Assembly (NCBI GenBank): GCA_017525245.1
Contig: JAFXTE010000024.1
Span: 1 to 42,359, forward strand
Reading direction: 5' to 3'
Length of the DNA stretch: 42,359 nt
Origin: Bacteroidales bacterium
GTDB lineage: Bacteria > Bacteroidota > Bacteroidia > Bacteroidales > WCHB1-69
Below the pieces are notes generated by a model that worked only from the letters and a program-made list of their open reading frames with translations, was not told the DNA's origin and did not search any database. A program made the position numbers and the translations under genes. Below are positions 6,490 through 20,420 of this stretch, piece after piece. How positions within the stretch are numbered: the first letter of the stretch is position 1; the number at the start of each line of letters is the position of its first letter.

Positions 6490-7656
6490 ATGATTGATCA
6501 CAACATTTCCTATGGTCATCAGTACATCTCCGACGAAGATATCCAAGCCGTTGTTGAAACGCTGAAATCCGACTACCTGACTCAGGGCCCAAAAATCGGT
6601 GAGTTTGAAAAGAACTTTTCCGAATATTTGGGTTGCCAATATGCCTGTATGGTGAGCAACGGCACTGCCGCACTCCATCTGTGTGCTATGGCATTGGGAA
6701 TCAAGCCTGGTGATAAGGTTATTACAACCCCCATCACTTTTGTGGCTTCCGCCAACGGCTTCCGCTACCAAGGAGCTGAGATCGTTTTCTGTGATATTGA
6801 TGCCAAAACCTATTGCTTGGATTTAGACAAACTGGAAGTTATCCTCAAAGCTTCACCAAAGGGCACATACAAAGCTGTTGTACCCGTTGACTTCGCCGGT
6901 TATCCTATTGATGAGGAGCGTTTGCGCAAGTTGGCGGATGAATACGGTTTTGCCATTGTGGTTGATGCTTGCCATGCTCCAGGAGGGAGTTACATTGACA
7001 GTAAAGGCACAAAGCAAATGGTGGGAAATTGCCATTATGCCGATTTGACCTGTTTCTCATTCCATCCTGTAAAGCACATCGCGACGGGCGAAGGTGGTGC
7101 TGTGACCACTAACCGAAAAGACTTGTATGAAAAAGTGGCCTTGTACCGTACACACGGCATCACCAAGAATCCTGATTTGCTCACTCAGAATGACGGAGGA
7201 TGGTATTATGAAATGCAGGATTTAGGATACAATTACCGCATCACTGATTTTCAAGCTGCTTTGGGCATCTCACAACTCAAACGTCTGGATTGGAGCATTC
7301 AAAGAAGAAATGAGATTGCCCACAAGTATGATGAAGCATTCAAAGACACTCCCATAAAGTCTCCGTTTAGGGCAGACAATATCACCCATGCATTCCACCT
7401 ATATATCATACAAGTGGCTACTGACAAACGCAAAGGGTTGTACGATCACCTGCGCGCCAATAAAATTTTTGCCCAGGTGCTTTATATTCCTGCCCACACG
7501 ATGCCTTATTACCGCCAGTTTGGTTGGAAGAACGGCGATCTGCCTGTGGCAGAAGACTACTATCAGCACTGTCTGGCTTTGCCGATGTACCCGACATTGA
7601 CGGAGGAAGAGCAGGAATGGGTGATTGAGAAAGTGAAAGAATACATTGGTTTATAG
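6490..7656 (+). CDS. pseC: UDP-4-amino-4,6-dideoxy-AltNAc transaminase, PseC
   Basis: A 388-residue DegT/DnrJ/EryC1-type PLP aminotransferase that carries out the second pseudaminic acid step, amination at C4 of the PseB product using glutamate. The ATG at 6490 is chosen because MIDHNISYGHQYISDEDI is the usual PseC N-terminus, while an upstream in-frame start at 6451 would only add repeat-derived residues. The PLP lysine is Lys195 in CFSFHPVKHIATGEGG, and Asp159 in VVDACHA would contact the pyridine nitrogen. SNGTAALH (56-63) binds the phosphate. The stop overlaps a possible GTG of the next gene by one base, as expected in an operon. Confidence 0.92.
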   Translation: MIDHNISYGHQYISDEDIQAVVETLKSDYLTQGPKIGEFEKNFSEYLGCQYACMVSNGTAALHLCAMALGIKPGDKVITTPITFVASANGFRYQGAEIVFCDIDAKTYCLDLDKLEVILKASPKGTYKAVVPVDFAGYPIDEERLRKLADEYGFAIVVDACHAPGGSYIDSKGTKQMVGNCHYADLTCFSFHPVKHIATGEGGAVTTNRKDLYEKVALYRTHGITKNPDLLTQNDGGWYYEMQDLGYNYRITDFQAALGISQLKRLDWSIQRRNEIAHKYDEAFKDTPIKSPFRADNITHAFHLYIIQVATDKRKGLYDHLRANKIFAQVLYIPAHTMPYYRQFGWKNGDLPVAEDYYQHCLALPMYPTLTEEEQEWVIEKVKEYIGL

Positions 7657-7664
7657 TGAAGATT

Positions 7665-8198
7665 ATGGAAGTACAGGTGTTATATGGTGAAAGAATTTAT
7701 CTTCGCCGTTTAACGGAGGAAGATGTAACCGATGATTATGTTCGTTGGATGAACGATCCAATGATTAATCAATATCTTGAAAGTCGCTTTTATGAACAAA
7801 CGATAGAAAGTACAAAAGCTTTTATTCGTTCTGTCACAAATGACAATAATTATCAGTTTGGCATTTTCTTAAAAGAAACTGATAAACATATCGGTAACAT
7901 CAAGATTGGTAGCATTAATCATTATCATAGGTACGCTGATATAGGCTTTTTGATTGGAGAAAAATCATATTGGGGAAAAGGAATAGCGACCGAAGCCATC
8001 AAACTTGCTACAGATTTTGCTTTCAATACTCTGAAACTCCATAAATTATGGGGAGGTGCATATTCTCCCAACATGGGTTCTATAAAGGCATTTATCAAAA
8101 ATGGATATCAGGAAGAAGGTATAAAGCATAGCCAATATTTATGCCATGGAGAATATGTGGATGATATTATGTTGGGAAAGGTGAATCCAAATGAGTAA
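7665..8198 (+). CDS. pseH: GNAT N-acetyltransferase, PseH-like
   Basis: A 177-residue RimJ/RimL-type GNAT protein. By position between pseC and the rest of the operon it is the likely PseH, which acetylates the C4 amino group of the PseC product with acetyl-CoA. It has the RLTEEDV entry, WMNDPMINQYLESR, the acetyl-CoA loop YWGKGIATEAI (102-112), and a C-terminal NMGSIKAFIKNGYQEEG typical of GNATs. I prefer the ATG at 7665; a GTG at 7656, overlapping the pseC stop, would add three residues. It overlaps the next gene by 8 bases. The family assignment is firm; substrate and gene symbol come from context, since a second GNAT protein lies further down the operon. Confidence 0.75.
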   Translation: MEVQVLYGERIYLRRLTEEDVTDDYVRWMNDPMINQYLESRFYEQTIESTKAFIRSVTNDNNYQFGIFLKETDKHIGNIKIGSINHYHRYADIGFLIGEKSYWGKGIATEAIKLATDFAFNTLKLHKLWGGAYSPNMGSIKAFIKNGYQEEGIKHSQYLCHGEYVDDIMLGKVNPNE

Positions 8199-9021
8199 GC
8201 TTGTTCTCGGAACCGTTCAGTTCGGCCTTCAATATGGGGTGAACTCAGCAGGACGTCCCAGCGAGGATGTTGTGAGGAGTATTCTTGCCGAGGCCTCAAA
8301 AGGTGGAATTACCACTTTGGACACTTCGAGCGCCTATGGCAACTCAGAAGAAATTCTTGGCAAGTGTTCAACTCCCGAAGAGGGATTCAAGATTGTTTCA
8401 AAATACCCCAAGGGTAAAACACCCGTTGGTGAGATGTTTAATGGCTCATTGAACCGACTGAAGGTGAAAAACCTCTATGGTTATCTCCTACATCATTTTG
8501 AGGTGTATAAGAACAACCCAAAAGTTTGGGATGAGTTCCATGCCTTGAAAGAGGCTGGCAAAGTCCAAAAGATAGGTTTCTCTTTGTACACACCTGAGGA
8601 ACTTCAGTTTATCCTTGATAACAAGTCGCCTTTTGACCTGATTCAAGTGCCATTTAACATTTTTGACAAGAAGTTCCTGCCTTTGATGATGGAAGTTCAT
8701 AAAAAAGGTGTTGAGGTGCATGTTCGTAGTACTTTCCTTCAGGGATTATTCTTCAAAGACAGAAACGCTTTGCCCGAGCGACTCCTGCCTATGAAAAAGT
8801 ATCTGCTTCAATTGGATGAGTTTTCAAAAAAAACAGGATTGAGTATTTCTGAAATAGCGTTGAATTACAATCTTCAAAATCCATACATCGACGGGGTTCT
8901 CATTGGTGTGGACAATGTTGTGCAATTGAAATCAAATCTCGCCTCAGTGAAGAATGTGCCTATAGATATTGAAATTGAAGTAAAAGAACAAGAATTATTG
9001 AACCCTGTAAATTGGAATTAA
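8191..9021 (+). CDS. Aldo/keto reductase in nonulosonate operon
   Basis: A 276-residue aldo/keto reductase, a single TIM barrel that reduces carbonyls with NADPH. The opening LVLGTVQFGLQYG and the tetrad candidates Asp44 and Tyr49 (LDTSSAYGNSEE), Lys71 (VSKYPKG) and His101/His102 (LLHHFEVY) fit the family. Near the C-terminus, LSISEIALNYNLQNPYIDGVLIGVDN is the cofactor-binding part. It overlaps the preceding GNAT gene by 8 bases and is followed after 1 base by the SpsF-like gene. An aldo/keto reductase is not part of the standard six-enzyme pseudaminic acid route, so it may modify the sugar. Its substrate cannot be read from the sequence. Confidence 0.88.
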   Translation: MSKLVLGTVQFGLQYGVNSAGRPSEDVVRSILAEASKGGITTLDTSSAYGNSEEILGKCSTPEEGFKIVSKYPKGKTPVGEMFNGSLNRLKVKNLYGYLLHHFEVYKNNPKVWDEFHALKEAGKVQKIGFSLYTPEELQFILDNKSPFDLIQVPFNIFDKKFLPLMMEVHKKGVEVHVRSTFLQGLFFKDRNALPERLLPMKKYLLQLDEFSKKTGLSISEIALNYNLQNPYIDGVLIGVDNVVQLKSNLASVKNVPIDIEIEVKEQELLNPVNWN

Positions 9022-9022
9022 T

Positions 9023-9802
9023 ATGAAAATCCTTGCTATAACACAAGCCCGGTATGGTTCAACAAGATTGCCAGCCAAAATCTTAAAGGAAGTCAAAGGA
9101 AAGACCTTGCTTGAGATACATCTTTATAGGATTTTGCTCTCAAAAACGATTTCCAAACTTAAAATTGCTACAACAGATGAAGAAGGTTCTAAATTTATTG
9201 TTGAAATAGCTGACAAAGTAAGAGTGGGTTATCATAAGGGCTCAGTAGATGATGTGCTCTCTCGTTTCTATGAAACTGCAGCACCCGAGAAACCTGATTA
9301 TGTTATTCGCTTTACATCAGACTGCCCTTTGATAGATCCGAATGTGATAGATGCCATAGTGGCTTTTGCTATTGAGCATCCTGAATATGATTATGTTCGT
9401 ACTCAGGCTGCGAGTTTCCCAGATGGACTTGACACCGAGGTGATGAAGTTTTCTGCTCTTGAAAGGGCTTTCAACGAAGCAACACTCAAATCAGAACGTG
9501 AGCATGTAACTGCTTACATTTGGAAAAATGGTTCGGCAGATGGAGGAGCCATCTTCAATACCTATAATTTCCCGAATCCTGTAGGCAAATACAATGCCAA
9601 CGATTACCGTATCACCATTGATGAGCCCGAGGATTTTGAAGTTATAAAGCGACTTATCGAAGCTCTTGGGTTTGATAAAGGTTGGAAGGAATACATCGAC
9701 TACTTGCTCGCCCACAAGGATATATATGAAATAAACAGCAAATTTAGCTATAACGAAGGTTACACTAAATCAATTAACAACGATAGTCAAATCAATAAAT
9801 AA
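9023..9802 (+). CDS. SpsF-like cytidylyltransferase (probable PseF role)
   Basis: A 259-residue nucleotidyltransferase of the SpsF / CMP-KDO synthetase-like family. The N-terminus ITQARYGSTRLPAKILKEVKGKTLLEIHL is the nucleotide-binding loop with its Arg and Lys. RFTSDCPLIDPNVID (about 97-111) carries the metal-binding Asp, and NDYRITIDEPEDFEVI is typical of SpsF proteins. It probably activates the finished nine-carbon sugar as its CMP derivative, the PseF role, but SpsF proteins are distinct from classical PseF/NeuA, so no symbol is given. The last 25 residues or so (after YEINSKF) look like a poorly conserved tail. It is one base from the preceding stop and 8 bases from the aminotransferase start. 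Confidence 0.82.
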   Translation: MKILAITQARYGSTRLPAKILKEVKGKTLLEIHLYRILLSKTISKLKIATTDEEGSKFIVEIADKVRVGYHKGSVDDVLSRFYETAAPEKPDYVIRFTSDCPLIDPNVIDAIVAFAIEHPEYDYVRTQAASFPDGLDTEVMKFSALERAFNEATLKSEREHVTAYIWKNGSADGGAIFNTYNFPNPVGKYNANDYRITIDEPEDFEVIKRLIEALGFDKGWKEYIDYLLAHKDIYEINSKFSYNEGYTKSINNDSQINK

Positions 9803-13261: not shown

Positions 13262-14539
13262 ATGCTTCTTGAATTTACGGTTGGAAACTATCGTTCTTTT
13301 TACGATAATAGGACATTTTCCATGCTTTCGCAAAAAATTAGAGAGGAGGCAAAAGAAAATGTAATTCAGGTGATGTCATACGATATCCTTAAAACGTTGG
13401 CGGTCTATGGGGCTAATTCGAGCGGGAAATCCAATCTGATCAATGCCATGCAGACAATGGATTCATGTGTGCTCGCTTCTGTTAAGCTCAACCCTAATGA
13501 AGAGTTGATGTATGATCCCTTCCTGCTTCGTAAAGGCAATGACAAGCCCACTGTATTCGAAGTGTCGTTCTTGAAAAATGAATACTGCTATCGTTATGGG
13601 TTTTCATATAATCGGACAAAGATTGTTGATGAGTGGCTTTTTCGACGTACAACCAAACGTTCAAAAGAACAAACCATCTTTATTCGTAATGAAGAGGGGA
13701 TTGCTTACGACGATAAGAAGTTTCCCGATGGTCCTGACAATGTTGCTTTAAAGACGCGAGTGAATGGTAACCGGTTGCTTCTTTCTCTTTGCGCGCAATT
13801 GGGTGGCAATATTTCAAATCAGGTGATTTCATGGTTCGAAACGGATTTCAATGTGGTGTCGGGTCTCAATAACCAAGGATATCGTGGCTTTTCAAAACTT
13901 TTATTCCATAATAATAGGGGAGAAAGTAGAAAAGCAATGAGTTTTTTCAAGAAATTACAATTGGGATTCAATGAGATTTCAACACAAGAAGAGCAATTGG
14001 CAATTCCAAGCGGTACGCCGAAAGATCTTATCCCATTGTTAAGTAGAGAAATTTTAGGTAAGAAAAACATCAAGATAGAGTCGGTACACAGTTTGTATGA
14101 CTCCAAAGGAAAGGGTTGTGGCTCAATTAATTTTCCATTTGAGGATAGGGAGTCGTCGGGTACAAGAAAACTTTTTGATATGTCGGGCCCGATCTTCGAC
14201 ACCTTGGAAAACGGAACCATACTGGTAATTGATGAGTTGGATGCGAAAATGCACCCGCTGATTTCACAAGAAATCATACGGTTGTTTCATAATAGTGAAA
14301 CGAACCCCAAAAATGCGCAATTGATTTTCACTACGCACGATACTAATTTATTGTCAACCAAAATGATGCGGCGTGACCAGATTTGGTTTACAGAAAAAAA
14401 TGAGACAGAACAAACAGACTTGTATTGTCTCACAGACATCGTATTTCCCGACGGCACAAAGCCACGCAATGATGCCAATTACGAAAAGAATTATATTGCC
14501 GGTCGATATGGTGCTATTCCATACATTGTCAATGAGTAA
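13262..14539 (+). CDS. AbiLi/RloA-type AAA ATPase (phage defence)
   Basis: A 425-residue ABC/SMC-like ATPase of the AAA_15/AAA_21 type found in abortive-infection pairs. MLLEFTVGNYRSFYDNRTFSM is the usual opening. The Walker A is GANSSGKS (residues 50-57). The signature-like RESSGTRK is at 296-303, the Walker B ILVIDELDAKMHP at 320-331, and a switch His at FTTHDTN (356-362). It is followed 11 bases later by a RloB gene, giving the two-gene arrangement of AbiL/RloAB. In the family model the ATPase senses infection and licenses a nuclease-like RloB partner; that role is inferred here. It has its own promoter and lower GC than the sugar genes. Confidence 0.85.
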   Translation: MLLEFTVGNYRSFYDNRTFSMLSQKIREEAKENVIQVMSYDILKTLAVYGANSSGKSNLINAMQTMDSCVLASVKLNPNEELMYDPFLLRKGNDKPTVFEVSFLKNEYCYRYGFSYNRTKIVDEWLFRRTTKRSKEQTIFIRNEEGIAYDDKKFPDGPDNVALKTRVNGNRLLLSLCAQLGGNISNQVISWFETDFNVVSGLNNQGYRGFSKLLFHNNRGESRKAMSFFKKLQLGFNEISTQEEQLAIPSGTPKDLIPLLSREILGKKNIKIESVHSLYDSKGKGCGSINFPFEDRESSGTRKLFDMSGPIFDTLENGTILVIDELDAKMHPLISQEIIRLFHNSETNPKNAQLIFTTHDTNLLSTKMMRRDQIWFTEKNETEQTDLYCLTDIVFPDGTKPRNDANYEKNYIAGRYGAIPYIVNE

Positions 14540-14550
14540 AGCAGAGAGAG

Positions 14551-15261
14551 ATGCCCGCAAATAAGATAAAATTGGATCCCGCACTTGAGCGGCGATACGC
14601 GAAAAAGGCGCAAAAGCATAAAGCCCGGAAGGTGGTGTGCAAAATTCTTATTGTTTGTGAGGGTACAAAAACAGAACCTAACTATTTTGAGGCATTTTCT
14701 TCTTTCAACAGAGGTACTACGGTTTACGATATTGAGGTAAAAGGATTGGGCAGGAACACTACGGATGTGGTGGATAAGGCTATTGACCTCAAGAACAAAG
14801 GCGATTATGACCGCGTATGGGCTGTGTTCGACAAAGACTCTTTTTCGGATGACAAATTCAACGGAGCCATTATCAAAGCTGGCAGCAACGGTATTTGCTG
14901 TGCGTGGAGTAATGAGGCTTTCGAGCTGTGGTATCTATACCATTTTGTTAATCGTACAACAGGAATGAGCAGGTCGGAATACCAGAAGGCCATTTCTAAG
15001 GCGGTTAACAGCTCCCCGAAATATAAGTTGAGGAATGCATACCAATATGCCAAAAACGATATTGACAATTATCGAATTATGACGCAATATGGCTCTATGG
15101 ATAAAGCCATACTCTATGCAGAAGCGATGAGCAACCAATATACCGATCAACGTTATGCTACGCATAATCCATGCACGATGGTATTCCGGTTAGTCCGTCA
15201 GCTGATAGGGAAAGACAACGAATTGAACGAGGAACTGAAAAGGAAAATTGAAGGGTTTTAA
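14551..15261 (+). CDS. RloB/AbiLii-like protein, Toprim-type partner
   Basis: A 236-residue RloB-family protein, the second component of the AbiL/RloAB pair. Diagnostic segments are ILIVCEGTKTEPNYFEAF (32-49, the catalytic Glu of a Toprim-like fold), VWAVFDKDSF (89-98, acidic cluster) and AWSNEAFELWYLYHF (118-132). The N-terminus is rich in Lys and Arg, which suggests nucleic-acid contact. It starts 11 bases after the ATPase gene and no promoter lies between. By analogy with OLD-family nucleases it may cleave nucleic acid when the ATPase is triggered; the target is unknown. Confidence 0.85.
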   Translation: MPANKIKLDPALERRYAKKAQKHKARKVVCKILIVCEGTKTEPNYFEAFSSFNRGTTVYDIEVKGLGRNTTDVVDKAIDLKNKGDYDRVWAVFDKDSFSDDKFNGAIIKAGSNGICCAWSNEAFELWYLYHFVNRTTGMSRSEYQKAISKAVNSSPKYKLRNAYQYAKNDIDNYRIMTQYGSMDKAILYAEAMSNQYTDQRYATHNPCTMVFRLVRQLIGKDNELNEELKRKIEGF

Positions 15262-15323
15262 GAGACAAGAAAAAAGAAATGGAACAATTCGTATGAATAA
15301 TTGGGGGTCACAGAAAAATAGCG

Positions 15324-15331
15324 TACATTTG
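15324..15331 (+). promoter_or_regulatory. Bacteroidota -7 promoter box for the caspase gene pair
   Basis: TACATTTG matches TAnnTTTG. It lies 103 bases upstream of the caspase start, which leaves an unusually long leader. Confidence 0.55.
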
Positions 15332-15340
15332 CGCTTCCAA

Positions 15341-15397
15341 CTTTTCTGACTTTGTTTAACGTCCTTCGGCAAAGGTTTAAGGCGTTGGCGAGAAAAG
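15341..15397 (+). promoter_or_regulatory. Possible structured 5' leader of the caspase gene
   Basis: CTTTTCT (15341-15347) pairs with AGAAAAG (15391-15397). Inside, CCTT (15363-15366) pairs with AAGG (15372-15375) around a CGGCA loop, giving nested hairpins in the leader. The pairing is short and has not been computed. Confidence 0.25.
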
Positions 15398-15434
15398 AGC
15401 AAAATAGCAGTCTCTTTAAATAATATAGTGGATT

Positions 15435-16166
15435 ATGAAAAGAAAAACGATACTGATAGGGAACACAAGAGGTCTGTTGTCCACCCCGATAGACCTATTT
15501 AACGTAGCACAATTTCTAATGTCTTACCAAGGTGGGGCGTGGGAGAAGAGCGAAATAGAGTTGTTGTTGGATAGGGGGTGCAATGAACTGCTGCTAGATG
15601 TGGATCGAATATCGGGAGAGAAAAATGATTATGTGATTGTCTATTTCTCAGGTCATGGCGGTTTGCAGGGTGATACTATCCTTGAGGTTAATCCTCAAGG
15701 AGAACTGATAAAAGAGAGTTCTTTGTTTGGACTGGCAGACAGGCAACTAAATATACTGGATTGCTGCCGGATTATTCATACAACACCTTTGCCAATTTAT
15801 GGTAGTTCAAGAGGTTTGAATGCCATAGACTGGGATTTGAGAGATGCTGTGCGAACAGAATATGAAGAACTCGTGACAAATGCGTCTCCCCAACTGGTAA
15901 GAATGTATTCGTGTTCAGAGGGGGAGTCATCATATCCTTCAAAGCAAGGTAGTTATTATACAAACAGCTTGCTTTCTTGTGCTAAAGACCTGTTGCAAAA
16001 TAACAATATAGTATGGGTTTGCCCGTGCCATGAGGCTGCTGCCATGAAAACTGCGGATGAGGTGCGAAGGGATTTGAAGGAAAACCAGCATCCTGAAATC
16101 ATACCTGCGAAATGTTTGTCAATGGCAGAACTGCCGTTCTGCTTTAATCCTAAATCATTAAAATAG
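15435..16166 (+). CDS. Caspase-like cysteine protease (peptidase C14 family)
   Basis: A 243-residue single-domain caspase fold. The opening ILIGNTRGLLSTPIDLFNVAQFL fits the first strand and helix. VIVYFSGHGG (68-77) supplies catalytic His74, and LNILDCCRI (106-114) the Cys, most likely Cys111 by alignment to the DxC of metacaspases. RMYSCSEGESSYPSKQGSYYTNSLL (157-180) is the usual specificity-loop region, and NQHPEIIPAK closes the fold. There is no extra recruitment domain, so activation must come from partners. Bacterial caspases act in cell-suicide defence systems. The next gene, 8 bases on, encodes a metallopeptidase, and an AbiL-like pair lies upstream, so a defence role is a reasonable inference. 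Confidence 0.85.
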   Translation: MKRKTILIGNTRGLLSTPIDLFNVAQFLMSYQGGAWEKSEIELLLDRGCNELLLDVDRISGEKNDYVIVYFSGHGGLQGDTILEVNPQGELIKESSLFGLADRQLNILDCCRIIHTTPLPIYGSSRGLNAIDWDLRDAVRTEYEELVTNASPQLVRMYSCSEGESSYPSKQGSYYTNSLLSCAKDLLQNNNIVWVCPCHEAAAMKTADEVRRDLKENQHPEIIPAKCLSMAELPFCFNPKSLK

Positions 16167-16174
16167 TAAGAACT

Positions 16175-17170
16175 ATGGCTGAAGAATTATACCCAGTTCT
16201 ATCGCTTAATATCAATATCACCGCTTTCTTGAAGAAAGTGATTAGTGCTGACATTTTTGGTAGTATAAAAACGGGACTTCAGAATAAGGTTGACTTGACT
16301 GATAAGGGAACTCATATTACTAGTATTGCTTCGATAGAGAAGAGTGCTGACGGAAAAACCTCGCAGGTTAGACTATCGTCAGCTTATTGTCAATACTTTT
16401 GGTTGTTGTGTGATGTGGTGCTTAAGATTCTGGATAGGAGAGTGATTACTACGGCTTGTATCTATTATGGCATCAGTATGGAAGTGTTTTTAAAGAGTGT
16501 TGAGGATACGAACAAAAAGACTAAGAAGCAGGTGCTGCCATTCATCCCAGACTTCTTTAAGCCCGATATAGAGCGTTATCTGGCATACTTGAAAATAGTA
16601 CCAGAGCTATTGGCAGATGTTTTTTGGGAACAGATTGGGTTTGAATACGCAATGTGCGAATCTCTTAAAGATAGGAAATATCCGATAGAAATGGAAGGGA
16701 TTAGGAGTATTGACATGAACAGCAAATACTCTGAGCGAACGAATTCCGTCTATAGTTATGGCATAGCATTCTGTATGCTTCATGAGCTGGAACACCATCG
16801 ACTTGGTCATCTTGAAAAGGAAGAAGAAATAAAGGACGAGGTGGCTGCTGATGCACAGGCATTTTGGAGCATTTACAAGGATATCAGGGGAGAAGAACGG
16901 TTTTCTGCCAATATCGGAATGCTGTGTGTGCTCTTCTCTTTTATGATGCTGAATCCTAAGTTGAAGGAAGATGGCGTTCATCCAAGAGAGGATAAGCGGA
17001 TGTTTGCTATCTATGATGAGGTAGTGAAGGAGAATCCGAAATATACAATGATGCTGGTTAACATTCTTGATTTCTGGGGAAAGGTTAATCATATTGCTGA
17101 TTATCCAAAAGATTTAGAGCCGGTAGATGAGTCAGTGAAGAAGATAAAAGCATATTTCAAGATAAGCTGA
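16175..17170 (+). CDS. HEXXH zinc metallopeptidase, Lit/U49- or M78-like, paired with caspase
   Basis: A 331-residue protein with a zincin active site: HELEHHRLGH (203-212; His203, Glu204 and His207) followed by DEVAADAQAF (221-230), which supplies the third ligand, probably Glu222. A later GVHPREDKRMFAIYDEV resembles the HPxxxxR segment of several such peptidases. No signal peptide is seen, so it is probably cytosolic. The N-terminal 190 residues have no motif I recognise. Phage-exclusion protein Lit and ImmA/IrrE peptidases share this type of signature; I cannot decide between them by eye. It is translated right after the caspase gene, so the two probably work together, one perhaps activating the other or both cutting host targets. 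Confidence 0.65.
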   Translation: MAEELYPVLSLNINITAFLKKVISADIFGSIKTGLQNKVDLTDKGTHITSIASIEKSADGKTSQVRLSSAYCQYFWLLCDVVLKILDRRVITTACIYYGISMEVFLKSVEDTNKKTKKQVLPFIPDFFKPDIERYLAYLKIVPELLADVFWEQIGFEYAMCESLKDRKYPIEMEGIRSIDMNSKYSERTNSVYSYGIAFCMLHELEHHRLGHLEKEEEIKDEVAADAQAFWSIYKDIRGEERFSANIGMLCVLFSFMMLNPKLKEDGVHPREDKRMFAIYDEVVKENPKYTMMLVNILDFWGKVNHIADYPKDLEPVDESVKKIKAYFKIS

Positions 17171-17706: not shown

Positions 17707-18465
17707 ATGAATAATTTGCCGTTTGGAGCAGCTTCTTACAGACAGTTCGAGACAACCTTTCTGGCTTCTGTAATTGTGGGAATGAAATATCTGCCTGTGT
17801 CCGATATTGATTCGTGCAAGAAAAAATGGGGCGAGTTTACGCAATCTTTGTTTTCGATTGCTCCACTTGAAGGCATATTCGAAAAACCAATAGTCATCAA
17901 CAGGAATGACCATAAGTTGTCGTTTATTTTTGAAAAAAACAGGGCACAGGTGCATATCGGTGGTGATGGTTACCAAAATTTTGCTGATACAGTAATTCCA
18001 CAAGCCTATAAATTGAAACGGTTTGTGACAGAAGTTGCGAATGTGGAAGCTCCCATCGGTCTTGGAATCAGAAAAATTGATGTGTTCCAAATAGAAACAA
18101 AAGAGGGAAACAATTTGGAAGAAGCCGCAGTGCGAAATCATTTTTTCTCAAGGGAATATTGTTCTCTGAAAGATGGCGAGGTTAAACCCGATGAGGAAGA
18201 GAAGAATTTCACAGGGTTGAAAAAACACCAGTGGACGGAAAACTCAAATCAGCTGACATTGAGATCTGCTTTTATAAAAGATCCTGGGGCAAGTAACAGG
18301 TATAGATTGGTGTTGGATACGGATGAGCAATATTCTCCTCATGAAGGTGTTAAGTTGGACAAATTGGATGAAGTGCTAATGGATATGAACAAAGACTTGT
18401 TTGATGCCTTTATGTGGTGCGTAAGCGATAGTGTGATTAAATTCATGACAAACGGAAAGGAGTAA
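17707..18465 (+). CDS. TIGR04255-like family protein
   Basis: A 252-residue protein that resembles the sporadic TIGR04255 family. The evidence is the overall length, the N-terminal segment ending in SVIVGMKYLPV, the central beta-rich part with VTEVANVEAPIGLGIRKIDVF, and a C-terminal LFDAFMWCVSDSVIKFM helix typical of that family (LxDAFxWCVSD). No catalytic motif, signal peptide or membrane helix is visible. It is the first of four tightly spaced genes, the next starting 5 bases after its stop. TIGR04255 proteins have no established function to my knowledge, but they occur patchily across genomes and often in variable regions, which fits the neighbouring defence genes. Confidence 0.65.
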   Translation: MNNLPFGAASYRQFETTFLASVIVGMKYLPVSDIDSCKKKWGEFTQSLFSIAPLEGIFEKPIVINRNDHKLSFIFEKNRAQVHIGGDGYQNFADTVIPQAYKLKRFVTEVANVEAPIGLGIRKIDVFQIETKEGNNLEEAAVRNHFFSREYCSLKDGEVKPDEEEKNFTGLKKHQWTENSNQLTLRSAFIKDPGASNRYRLVLDTDEQYSPHEGVKLDKLDEVLMDMNKDLFDAFMWCVSDSVIKFMTNGKE

Positions 18466-18470
18466 TTGGT

Positions 18471-19136
18471 ATGAATTTCACGGCAAAAACTGCGGATATA
18501 TCAATTGACAGTTTGGAACAGTTATACTCCGCACCGGTTAAATCATCGGGACATAAGGTACGGGTGGCGGCATTCTCTTTCTTTTTAATTGTCTCTTCAA
18601 TCAACGCAGAAGATTATGATTCTGACCATTTCGTGAGCAATGGCGGACATCAAACGACCGAATTGCTCGATCGGTCTAACAAATTTGTGCCCAATTCTCT
18701 AATTTATGATGTTCCTGTTAGTTTTGATCAACCACTTTATAGAGTATTTGCCAGACAGGTTTCTGCAAGATGGCAACGGCAGGAAAGTCTTGACAAACTT
18801 TGCGATTCCTTTTACGCAAACTTTATTAAGGGACAGATGGATGTTGAACGTTTTTTCCCATTATTCAAAAATATGGCCAAAGAATTGCGCAATTTGAAAA
18901 TCAACTATGTTTTCGTTGATGTGAGCCGCAAGAAAAACATGATTGATTTCAACTTGTCTTTGGATGAAGGACTGTTCTTGTCCGTGGCACAAGTGTTAAA
19001 TGAGCCAATGGAGAATGTGATGTTTACCATTGCAAGAAACAACAAGACCATTGTGATTGACGAGATGCCATTAAAAGAATTGGTTAGGAAGGTGGCTGAT
19101 GTCGAATCTCAACTCAAATCGGTTCCCCGCTCATGA
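18471..19136 (+). CDS. Uncharacterised protein of the TIGR04255 cassette
   Basis: A 221-residue protein I do not recognise. The segment VRVAAFSFFLIVSSINAEDYDSD (about 30-52) is hydrophobic and then acidic; it is probably a buried strand rather than a membrane helix, since AFSFFLIV is short and lies well inside the protein. Residues 120-150 are amphipathic helix-like, and the C-terminal 40 residues (MPLKELVRKVADVESQL) look helical. It starts 5 bases after the TIGR04255-like gene and its stop overlaps the next start (ATGA). This translational coupling suggests the products form a complex or are needed in fixed ratio. Confidence 0.75.
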   Translation: MNFTAKTADISIDSLEQLYSAPVKSSGHKVRVAAFSFFLIVSSINAEDYDSDHFVSNGGHQTTELLDRSNKFVPNSLIYDVPVSFDQPLYRVFARQVSARWQRQESLDKLCDSFYANFIKGQMDVERFFPLFKNMAKELRNLKINYVFVDVSRKKNMIDFNLSLDEGLFLSVAQVLNEPMENVMFTIARNNKTIVIDEMPLKELVRKVADVESQLKSVPRS

Positions 19137-19978
19137 AGATGCATCGCTATCCTTCATATATGGTTCCGTATGTGGGTTTGAATCCTGATGTGGATGTAGA
19201 TGCCTTGTTACAGTATGGCGATTTCGCCGTTGCCCGCAGAATTGATCAGCCTTTTAGCGAGGAGGATATTGCGATTTTCCCTGACAAGTCGGCTGTTGTA
19301 AAAGCTGATTCATCACTGAGGGAGGATGTTTTTAATCGCATACCACGTCTTTCGATGACCATGCTTCGATTGGAGTTTCCGTTAACTTGCGTAAAGTATG
19401 ACATAGATATGAAAGGCGAGGTAGATGATTGGAAGGGTCGAATGGTCAGGCCGTGGAAATACCGAGGCAAAGCCACATCGGCAAGCGACGGCTATCTGTT
19501 GGTTTATAATGCGGAAAATCTTCATAACAAACCTGCGGATTACCAGAGGAAATTTGAGAGTTTAGAAGAAGCCGAGAATGTTCAAGAGAATTATGAGGGC
19601 TTGAAAGATGGCATTGTTGCAAAAACTTTTTCAAGGAAAAAATATTATAAAGCAATAGGTTGTATCTCGCTACGGCATGCTCCAACCATGTTGAACTACT
19701 GGCACTTCGAACTGAGGTTGAGAAACGGGGAAGGAGAGGAAATCAAAAGTGTAAAGTATAAACCTAACGAAGCACCGTCCCAAATGAATATGAGGTCAAG
19801 TTTTGTTAATTATGTATTGGACAACTATCTTTTCAAGATGCTTTGGATTGACAAGAATCCATGCGAGAAAGATATTCCTATTTCTTGTTTTTACAGTTCC
19901 AGTACATCTTCTTTCAACAGACGTATAGCGAACAGAATAAATAAGTGCGTTTTTGCCTTGATTCCTATTGTAAAATAG
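19133..19978 (+). CDS. Uncharacterised protein of the TIGR04255 cassette
   Basis: A 281-residue protein without a motif I can name. It is rich in charged and aromatic residues (WKGRMVRPWKYRGK near 105-118, YWHFELRLRNGEGEEIKSVKY in the second half) and looks like a soluble alpha/beta protein with no signal peptide. The C-terminal FNRRIANRINKCVFALI is basic and amphipathic. It overlaps the preceding gene by four bases (ATGA) and is followed 19 bases later by the last gene of the cassette. Its function can only be guessed from the company it keeps. Confidence 0.75.
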   Translation: MKMHRYPSYMVPYVGLNPDVDVDALLQYGDFAVARRIDQPFSEEDIAIFPDKSAVVKADSSLREDVFNRIPRLSMTMLRLEFPLTCVKYDIDMKGEVDDWKGRMVRPWKYRGKATSASDGYLLVYNAENLHNKPADYQRKFESLEEAENVQENYEGLKDGIVAKTFSRKKYYKAIGCISLRHAPTMLNYWHFELRLRNGEGEEIKSVKYKPNEAPSQMNMRSSFVNYVLDNYLFKMLWIDKNPCEKDIPISCFYSSSTSSFNRRIANRINKCVFALIPIVK

Positions 19979-19997
19979 GATATCGTCGTTAGGGTTG

Positions 19998-20420
19998 ATG
20001 TTATTGGAAGAGTCGAGGCTTTTAAATGGCTTGTATGCCTCGTTGGATGCGACCGAAATACCAATGCGAAGCATGTTTGACAATATTGCATATAAAAATT
20101 TCAAGCATAATGATTGGTCTGCGATGATGAGAAACAAATTTTGTATTAGGTTTGAAGATAATGAAATGTTCAATGATTTAATTAAAATGCTGAATGCCGA
20201 AAAGCAAAAGATTGGCAAGGAATTTTTCAAATTTAGACGTTCGGATTTGTTTGTAGTATTGAAATCTTTACCAGGCAGAATGCCGAGAAAAATGGACAAT
20301 TTTGTTTTCTTGTTAAACAGGGCAACAGTGAAAAATCTATATATTCTTGATTTAGAACCAGCTCCTATCTCAGATTTGTTTGATAGAGTGAATTGTGCTG
20401 AATACCATAAAAATAATTAA
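19998..20420 (+). CDS. Uncharacterised small protein ending the TIGR04255 cassette
   Basis: A 140-residue protein, not recognised. The ATG at 19998 is preferred over a TTG one codon upstream. The sequence is probably mostly helical and rich in Lys, Arg, Phe and Met (SMFDNIAYKNFKHNDWSAMMRNKF, FKFRRSDLFVVLKSLPGRMPRKMDNFVFLLN), and it is basic in the middle, so nucleic-acid or membrane-surface contact is possible. It follows the previous gene by 19 bases without a promoter box. It could in principle be the displaced C-terminus of the preceding protein, but the separate start and intervening stop make an independent gene more likely. Confidence 0.65.
   Translation: MLLEESRLLNGLYASLDATEIPMRSMFDNIAYKNFKHNDWSAMMRNKFCIRFEDNEMFNDLIKMLNAEKQKIGKEFFKFRRSDLFVVLKSLPGRMPRKMDNFVFLLNRATVKNLYILDLEPAPISDLFDRVNCAEYHKNN

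Follow-up and report, generated by a model that had tools for sequence, protein, structure and literature searches.

Organization of the locus

The window, which is the whole stretch of 42,359 nucleotides analysed here, encodes a caspase-like protease followed by a metallopeptidase, both belonging to families tied to defence. The features of the locus are the following.

13262..14539, + strand: AbiLi/RloA-like AAA ATPase, neighbouring defence gene (profile, 5.9e-96)
14551..15261, + strand: AbiLii/RloB-like protein, neighbouring defence gene (profile, 4.5e-28; Pfam RloB, 5.5e-44)
15301..15331, + strand: promoter-like site TTG-N20-TACATTTG, Bacteroidetes-type consensus (loose pattern match)
15331..15385, + strand: possible stem-loop in the putative caspase 5' leader (MFE -18.6 kcal/mol for 15331-15434, without shuffled control)
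15435..16166, + strand: caspase-like (C14) protease, 243 aa, single domain (ORF, Pfam, alignment, structure model)
15654..15656, 15759..15761 and 15765..15767, + strand: caspase residues His74, Asp109 and Cys111 (alignment)
16175..17170, + strand: Lit-like metallopeptidase, 331 aa (ORF, PADLOC, NCBIfam, alignment)
16439..16669, + strand: residues 89-165, holding most of about 40 extra residues, candidate gating insertion (two alignments)
16781..16795, + strand: HEXXH zinc-binding motif, HELEH, residues 203-207 (alignment)
16838..16852, + strand: Glu222...Asp226, invariant in Lit alignments (alignment)
16982..16999, + strand: Pro270...Arg275, invariant in Lit alignments (alignment)

Both protease ORFs are intact and lie where the preliminary description had placed them, with 8 bases between the caspase stop and the metallopeptidase start. 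That description had read the locus as two proteases of different classes, 8 bases apart and adjoining an AbiL-like defence pair; coordinates and spacing agree with it, and the AbiLi and AbiLii matches listed above identify the adjoining pair (RloAB). RloAB ends 173 bases before the caspase start, on the same strand, and a NeuB gene lies on its other side, away from the caspase. On the 3' side of the metallopeptidase, after a gap of 536 bases, comes a group of four same-strand ORFs (17707-20420), the first of which encodes a TIGR04255 protein; for the remaining three, no family scores above cut-off. GC content is 0.395-0.428 for RloAB, the caspase, the Lit-like gene and three genes of the TIGR04255 group, against 0.456 for the whole window, and it is 0.311 in the gene that follows these three. 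The Pfam scan of this neighbourhood covered ten genes between 12130 and 21875.

The two protease genes had also been described as standing behind one promoter. A loose match to what we take to be the Bacteroidetes-type consensus is indeed present at 15301-15331, in keeping with this claim, but the stricter pattern does not match there, and the site is weak on its own because the loose pattern occurs three times on the + strand of the window (and never on the - strand) against 1.54 expected per strand. A single promoter for both genes is plausible. The Rfam scan of the window, including the putative leader stem-loop, gave no match.

The caspase-like protease

The upstream protein matches Pfam PF00656 (C14) over residues 5-222 (2.1e-10, 41.1 bits, cut-off 21.4). 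An alignment of 36 caspase rows shows no variation at Asp65, His74, Asp109 and Gly172, and at least 90% of the rows keep Cys111 and Arg112. The structure is predicted to form a single compact domain, with a mean pLDDT of 92.0. These results uphold its earlier description as a caspase with His74 and Cys111 and without a recruitment domain. The sole low-confidence loop of the model, residues 117-129, follows the catalytic Cys, in the region that we take to be the caspase activation linker. Asp109 occupies what is presumably the position of the Arg/Lys-selecting Asp of MALT1-type paracaspases, and the window caspase may accordingly cut after a basic residue. Such a preference is a guess, both because it leans on that presumption and because a bacterial caspase-like protease cleaving after leucine is known (PMC9612521).

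A divergent relative of Lit

The motifs HELEHHRLGH and DEVAAD that had been noted in the metallopeptidase are both present in its translation. The PADLOC Lit model matches the protein with 3.9e-8, and the NCBIfam model NF007238 (phage exclusion protein Lit) with 7.9e-9 and 35.1 bits, below its cut-off of 274. Pfam gives no family at E up to 1, and so no match to PF10463, which the Agrobacterium Lit L093 does match (7.9e-14). The residues invariant in Lit (Trp, HExxH, Glu, Asp, Pro and Arg; eight invariant columns in eight aligned sequences) are all kept. When compared with a profile of seven Lit proteins, residues 178-280 match with a probability of 80.6% (E 1.3e-5), and BLASTP aligns residues 139-229 with E. 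coli Lit (E 0.008); upstream of residue 139 the relationship is seen in the multiple alignment and in one conserved Trp. Identity to other Lit proteins is 11-26%, depending on the alignment, and the single-sequence structure model has a mean pLDDT of 40.4. Judged from its sequence, the metallopeptidase is a Lit-like protein, a divergent relative that falls short of a certified Lit, since its NF007238 score is far below the NCBI cut-off and its N-terminal half is weakly related.

The profile matches thus point to Lit, and not to a known housekeeping family, which had been considered as a possibility. The N-terminal 190 residues had been called novel-looking and suspected of being a sensor; an alignment to the N-terminal half of Lit is possible for all of them except about 40 extra residues, and the unusual feature of the protein is this insertion before the catalytic helix. 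A new sensor domain fused to the peptidase was rejected on this ground.

A search with the single protein returned no relative from plasmids, phages or viral contigs, and among 295 genomes of the order and 395 of the phylum only the window and L007, an interrupted relative without HEXXH. The 86-aa catalytic fragment gave 71 pattern matches in genome contigs and no relative, in a search sensitive to close relatives only. Within the family, the PADLOC Lit model matches in 3 of 104 genomes including the window's own; the other two matches (L009 and L010) are weak and cover 36-37 positions within frames of more than 700 aa. In viral contigs, the DNA pattern for HExEHHxxGH occurs in seven stretches, none of them Lit-like, the search with A5 yielded none of 79, and the search with E. 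coli Lit found one copy, 99% identical. The Lit relatives used here come from alignment searches and from plasmids: one alignment search matched 22 genomes, of which 19, all weaker than 8e-6, were left out, another left out G1180 as a broken gene, and two plasmid searches contributed 8 of 13 and 2 of 4 records.

Extra residues before the catalytic helix

In the window protein, 127 residues separate Trp76 from HEXXH, the Trp being placed by alignment. All 20 of the other Lit proteins measured have a spacing of 76-94 residues (mean 86.3, SD 3.7), among them E. coli Lit with 88, and so had 13 of 13 in a smaller set; the window protein does not share the spacing of its family. The count leaves out L088, L094 and L145, in each of which Lit is in two pieces, and the distant L123; L090 was counted without its N-terminal extension and L146 despite a Val at the Trp column. 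Two alignment methods put the extra residues in different places, mostly within residues 89-165, so that their borders are tentative. The extra length could be drift, since the window protein is so divergent from other Lit proteins.

Recurrence of the pair

The scan of genome contigs gave 66 caspase loci, and the plasmid loci L011 and L012 bring the number of distinct loci to 68 (L003 and L004 lie on the same contigs as L042 and L036). The caspase matched five Leptospira plasmids, of which two were examined, and none of its relatives turned up in viral contigs and phages. Among the 295 genomes of the order there were five matches, namely the window and L003 to L006; L005 and L006 were left out as other caspase types, by reading of their sequences.

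The idea of a recurring two-gene unit was not supported, as no Lit relative was found beside the caspase at the 68 caspase loci, nor any caspase at the 24 loci of Lit genes; homologues were not found adjacent in other genomes, and this adjacency comparison, proposed at the outset, lends no support to a two-gene system. Neither the window peptidase nor E. coli Lit, used as tblastn queries, matched the caspase loci at E up to 1; at E up to 10 there were nine short matches, none better than 1.1, whereas the caspase control was recovered in 70 of 70. At three of the 68 loci (L021, L069 and L084) the contig breaks off at the caspase or shortly beyond it, and the downstream gene lies outside the data. 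The caspase profile had no match at E<1 at the 24 Lit loci, whose flanks extend for about 3-7 kb (only 0.7 kb downstream for L122). The Lit profile matched weakly at two caspase loci, L034 (6.6e-5) and L053 (0.0015), the latter more than 4 kb from the caspase. L034 was rejected as a second pair: its protein starts with an HTH, has a layout that we take to be that of the HTH-ImmA/IrrE families, and has no useful pairwise similarity to Lit.

Partner genes of related caspases

In a tree of 65 rows (L003, L004, L082, L083, L084 and L086 being left out), the window caspase falls in a 17-row clade (support 100/98), on a long branch along which the catalytic residues are kept; its nearest neighbour is L034, with the weak support of 86/68. 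In 13 of the 17 rows the caspase is adjoined by a protein of about 145 aa with an N-terminal hydrophobic stretch. A profile built from 13 such neighbours, which it finds by construction, matches beside the caspase at 18 of the 68 loci (L012, L021, L022, L024-L028, L031-L034, L038, L042, L043, L070 and L076, and L011, where the protein is split in two), distributed over Bacteroidota, Spirochaetota, Pseudomonadota and one candidate phylum. It has no match in the window. Two members compared with Pfam gave nothing above cut-off (best 0.038), and the protein with its caspase looks like an unnamed two-gene unit. We call such proteins membrane-type from a reading of their hydrophobic stretches, without a predictor.

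The four clade rows without this neighbour are the window, L030, L023 and L029. The L030 caspase has opposite-strand genes on both sides. At L023 an opposite-strand gene lies upstream and a different membrane-type protein, without Pfam match, 12 bases downstream (6712-7545); at L029 a relative of this protein (850-1779) overlaps the caspase gene, and the contig starts at the caspase, so that the upstream side is outside the data. We infer from the tree that the window caspase lost its neighbour of about 145 aa. Partner exchange is likely within the clade, since a dedicated neighbour is present in 13 of 17 rows and L023 and L029 carry a different membrane-type protein.

Directly 3' of the caspase, a second caspase-like gene (by reading) is seen at L024 (6716-7441) and L031 (5215-5970). 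Among 85 neighbour proteins of 17 caspase loci (160-1400 aa, within 4.5 kb, uncut), four match type I methyltransferase models of PADLOC.

Comparison with known systems

Several described systems resemble the pair in part. In Canu (CanABC; PMC12799240), a caspase gene is followed by a downstream effector gene, as in the window, and the effector has insertions which presumably gate its activity and which the partner protease would recognise. The Canu caspase, however, has an Ig-like domain, forms a complex with CanB and has an MBL-type nuclease as effector, whereas the window has a bare caspase domain and a Lit-like peptidase: a C-terminal Ig-like domain is absent from the 243-aa caspase, of which C14 takes up residues 5-222 in a single compact model, and Pfam finds no MBL-type nuclease gene among the ten genes scanned. 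Membership in Canu was therefore rejected. The extra residues of the Lit-like protein are reminiscent of the insertions that gate pro-nucleases activated by a caspase or a trypsin (Canu, Hachiman and AVAST).

System 4, with the EACC1-associated caspases (PMC7159879), consists of two-gene units in which the product of the 5' gene is membrane-anchored and the 3' gene encodes the caspase. The window caspase matches the corresponding profile NF047832 with 6.1e-7 but with 29.1 bits against a cut-off of 140, and its 5' neighbour is RloB, with no membrane-anchored partner on that side; EACC1 membership was rejected on both counts. Type IV Thoeris (PMC12847820) likewise uses a bacterial caspase-like protease in defence, but works with a TIR gene and N7-cADPR. 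None of the ten genes matches a TIR family of Pfam at E up to 1, and membership in Thoeris was rejected accordingly.

E. coli Lit (Peptidase U49, from prophage e14) shares with the window protein the conserved Trp, HEXXH, Glu, Asp, Pro and Arg and a distant profile match, but it is standalone and has the shorter spacing of 88 residues instead of 127. This latent protease cleaves EF-Tu at the bond of Gly59 with Ile60, and it is woken by Gol, a phage capsid peptide, bound to EF-Tu and not by a partner protease (PMC3014915). No named caspase-Lit system was found in open-licence papers, within the portions of them accessible. The association of caspases with Peptidase U49 may have been drawn before, because a legend in PMC9612521 lists both among the genes of four bacterial gasdermin operons. 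The Pfam scan detected no gasdermin family among the ten genes.

A possible proteolytic cascade

Our best reading, to which we assign a probability of roughly 0.4, is that the caspase cuts the insertion and so activates a pro-Lit, which then cleaves a host target and aborts infection. In an uninfected cell the metallopeptidase would be a zymogen, held inactive by the extra residues that precede its catalytic helix, until an infection cue switches on the caspase; RloAB next door is a candidate sensor only. The caspase would then cut the insertion, perhaps after a basic residue, given Asp109, and the freed metallopeptidase would cleave a host protein, by family most simply EF-Tu, so that translation would stop. 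A protease cascade appears to be the best mechanism for the pair because its only caspase-linked Lit copy is also the only long-spaced one (127 residues versus 76-94 in 20 of 20 others), and because the logic of Canu is similar; against it stands the fact that the pair is a singleton, with none at the 68 caspase loci and none at the 24 Lit loci. The strong divergence of the Lit-like protein, and the waking of E. coli Lit by Gol on EF-Tu instead of by a protease, also speak against it. The fuller version, in which the gating insertion was acquired and the caspase unlocks the zymogen downstream of RloAB as the sensor, is doubtful.

The main rival, itself tentative, holds that two independent defence genes share an operon, the caspase having lost its membrane-type partner and Lit acting alone as in E. 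coli. The same failure of the pair to recur speaks for it, as do the several Lit relatives without an evident defence partner (L116, L124, L125 and L122, the last with its 0.7 kb of downstream sequence), the presence of RloAB and of the TIGR04255 group in the same island, and the L030 caspase, flanked by opposite-strand genes; yet the 8-base spacing of two intact genes, the long Trp-HEXXH spacing confined to the caspase-linked copy, and the retention of the catalytic residues on a long branch all argue against it. The two proteases might instead be an accessory effector layer of RloAB, in a single four-gene system. The 173 bases on the same strand between the pairs would suit this arrangement, and AbiLi-like genes occur near related caspases: at L034 an AbiLi homologue (7852-9123, 31% identity, 3.6e-50) lies about 1.1 kb downstream of the weakly placed tree neighbour, and at L021 a PtuA/AbiLi-like ATPase lies directly upstream of the membrane-type protein and the caspase. 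We regard it as improbable, considering that a promoter-like site, if a weak one, separates the two pairs and that blastp (E up to 1e-2) finds AbiLi at only one other caspase locus and RloB at none.

The order of events could also be reversed, the Lit-like peptidase being a latent sensor that a phage product wakes and that activates the caspase, which in turn degrades cell proteins. The predicted low-confidence loop after the catalytic Cys, where we presume an activation linker to lie, would fit such an event. The waking of latent Lit by a phage capsid peptide on EF-Tu (PMC3014915) and the caspase-like effector of type IV Thoeris that degrades cellular proteins (PMC12847820) provide precedents. 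The feature that distinguishes the pair from its relatives sits in Lit and not in the caspase, however, which leaves this order with little probability, if slightly more than the four-gene system. Least probable of all is that the caspase is a restraint, antitoxin-like, keeping the Lit relative degraded until a phage inhibits it and frees Lit: gene order and tight spacing would be compatible with this, but the caspase pairs described with a nuclease (PMC12799240) and with gasdermin (PMC9612521) are activating.

If caspase activation of a pro-Lit is correct, the locus would encode a bacterial two-step proteolytic cascade whose second enzyme is again a protease, with a target that is plausibly essential. 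The principle of an insertion recognised by a partner protease, seen in pro-nucleases, would then look general and would reach a translation-killing peptidase, and it would be explained why one Lit relative differs from 20 others in one measurable trait.

Neighbours of other Lit genes

The neighbours of other Lit genes are varied and several are defence genes; the labels NACHT, SIR2, SEFIR and TIR used here come from sequence reading and not from profile results. PP2C is the neighbour at L093, a SEC-C motif protein is another type, a SIR2-like protein is found at L121, and SEFIR/TIR-like proteins at L123 and L143. A large NACHT-like ATPase gene adjoins Lit at L117 (1462-6707) and at L139 (4619-8268), where its frame looks split. 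On two Agrobacterium plasmids a predicted pPIWI-associating nuclease gene (L088, 2105-2968, where Lit is the gene in two pieces; L089, 2168-2965) overlaps Lit by 4 bases.
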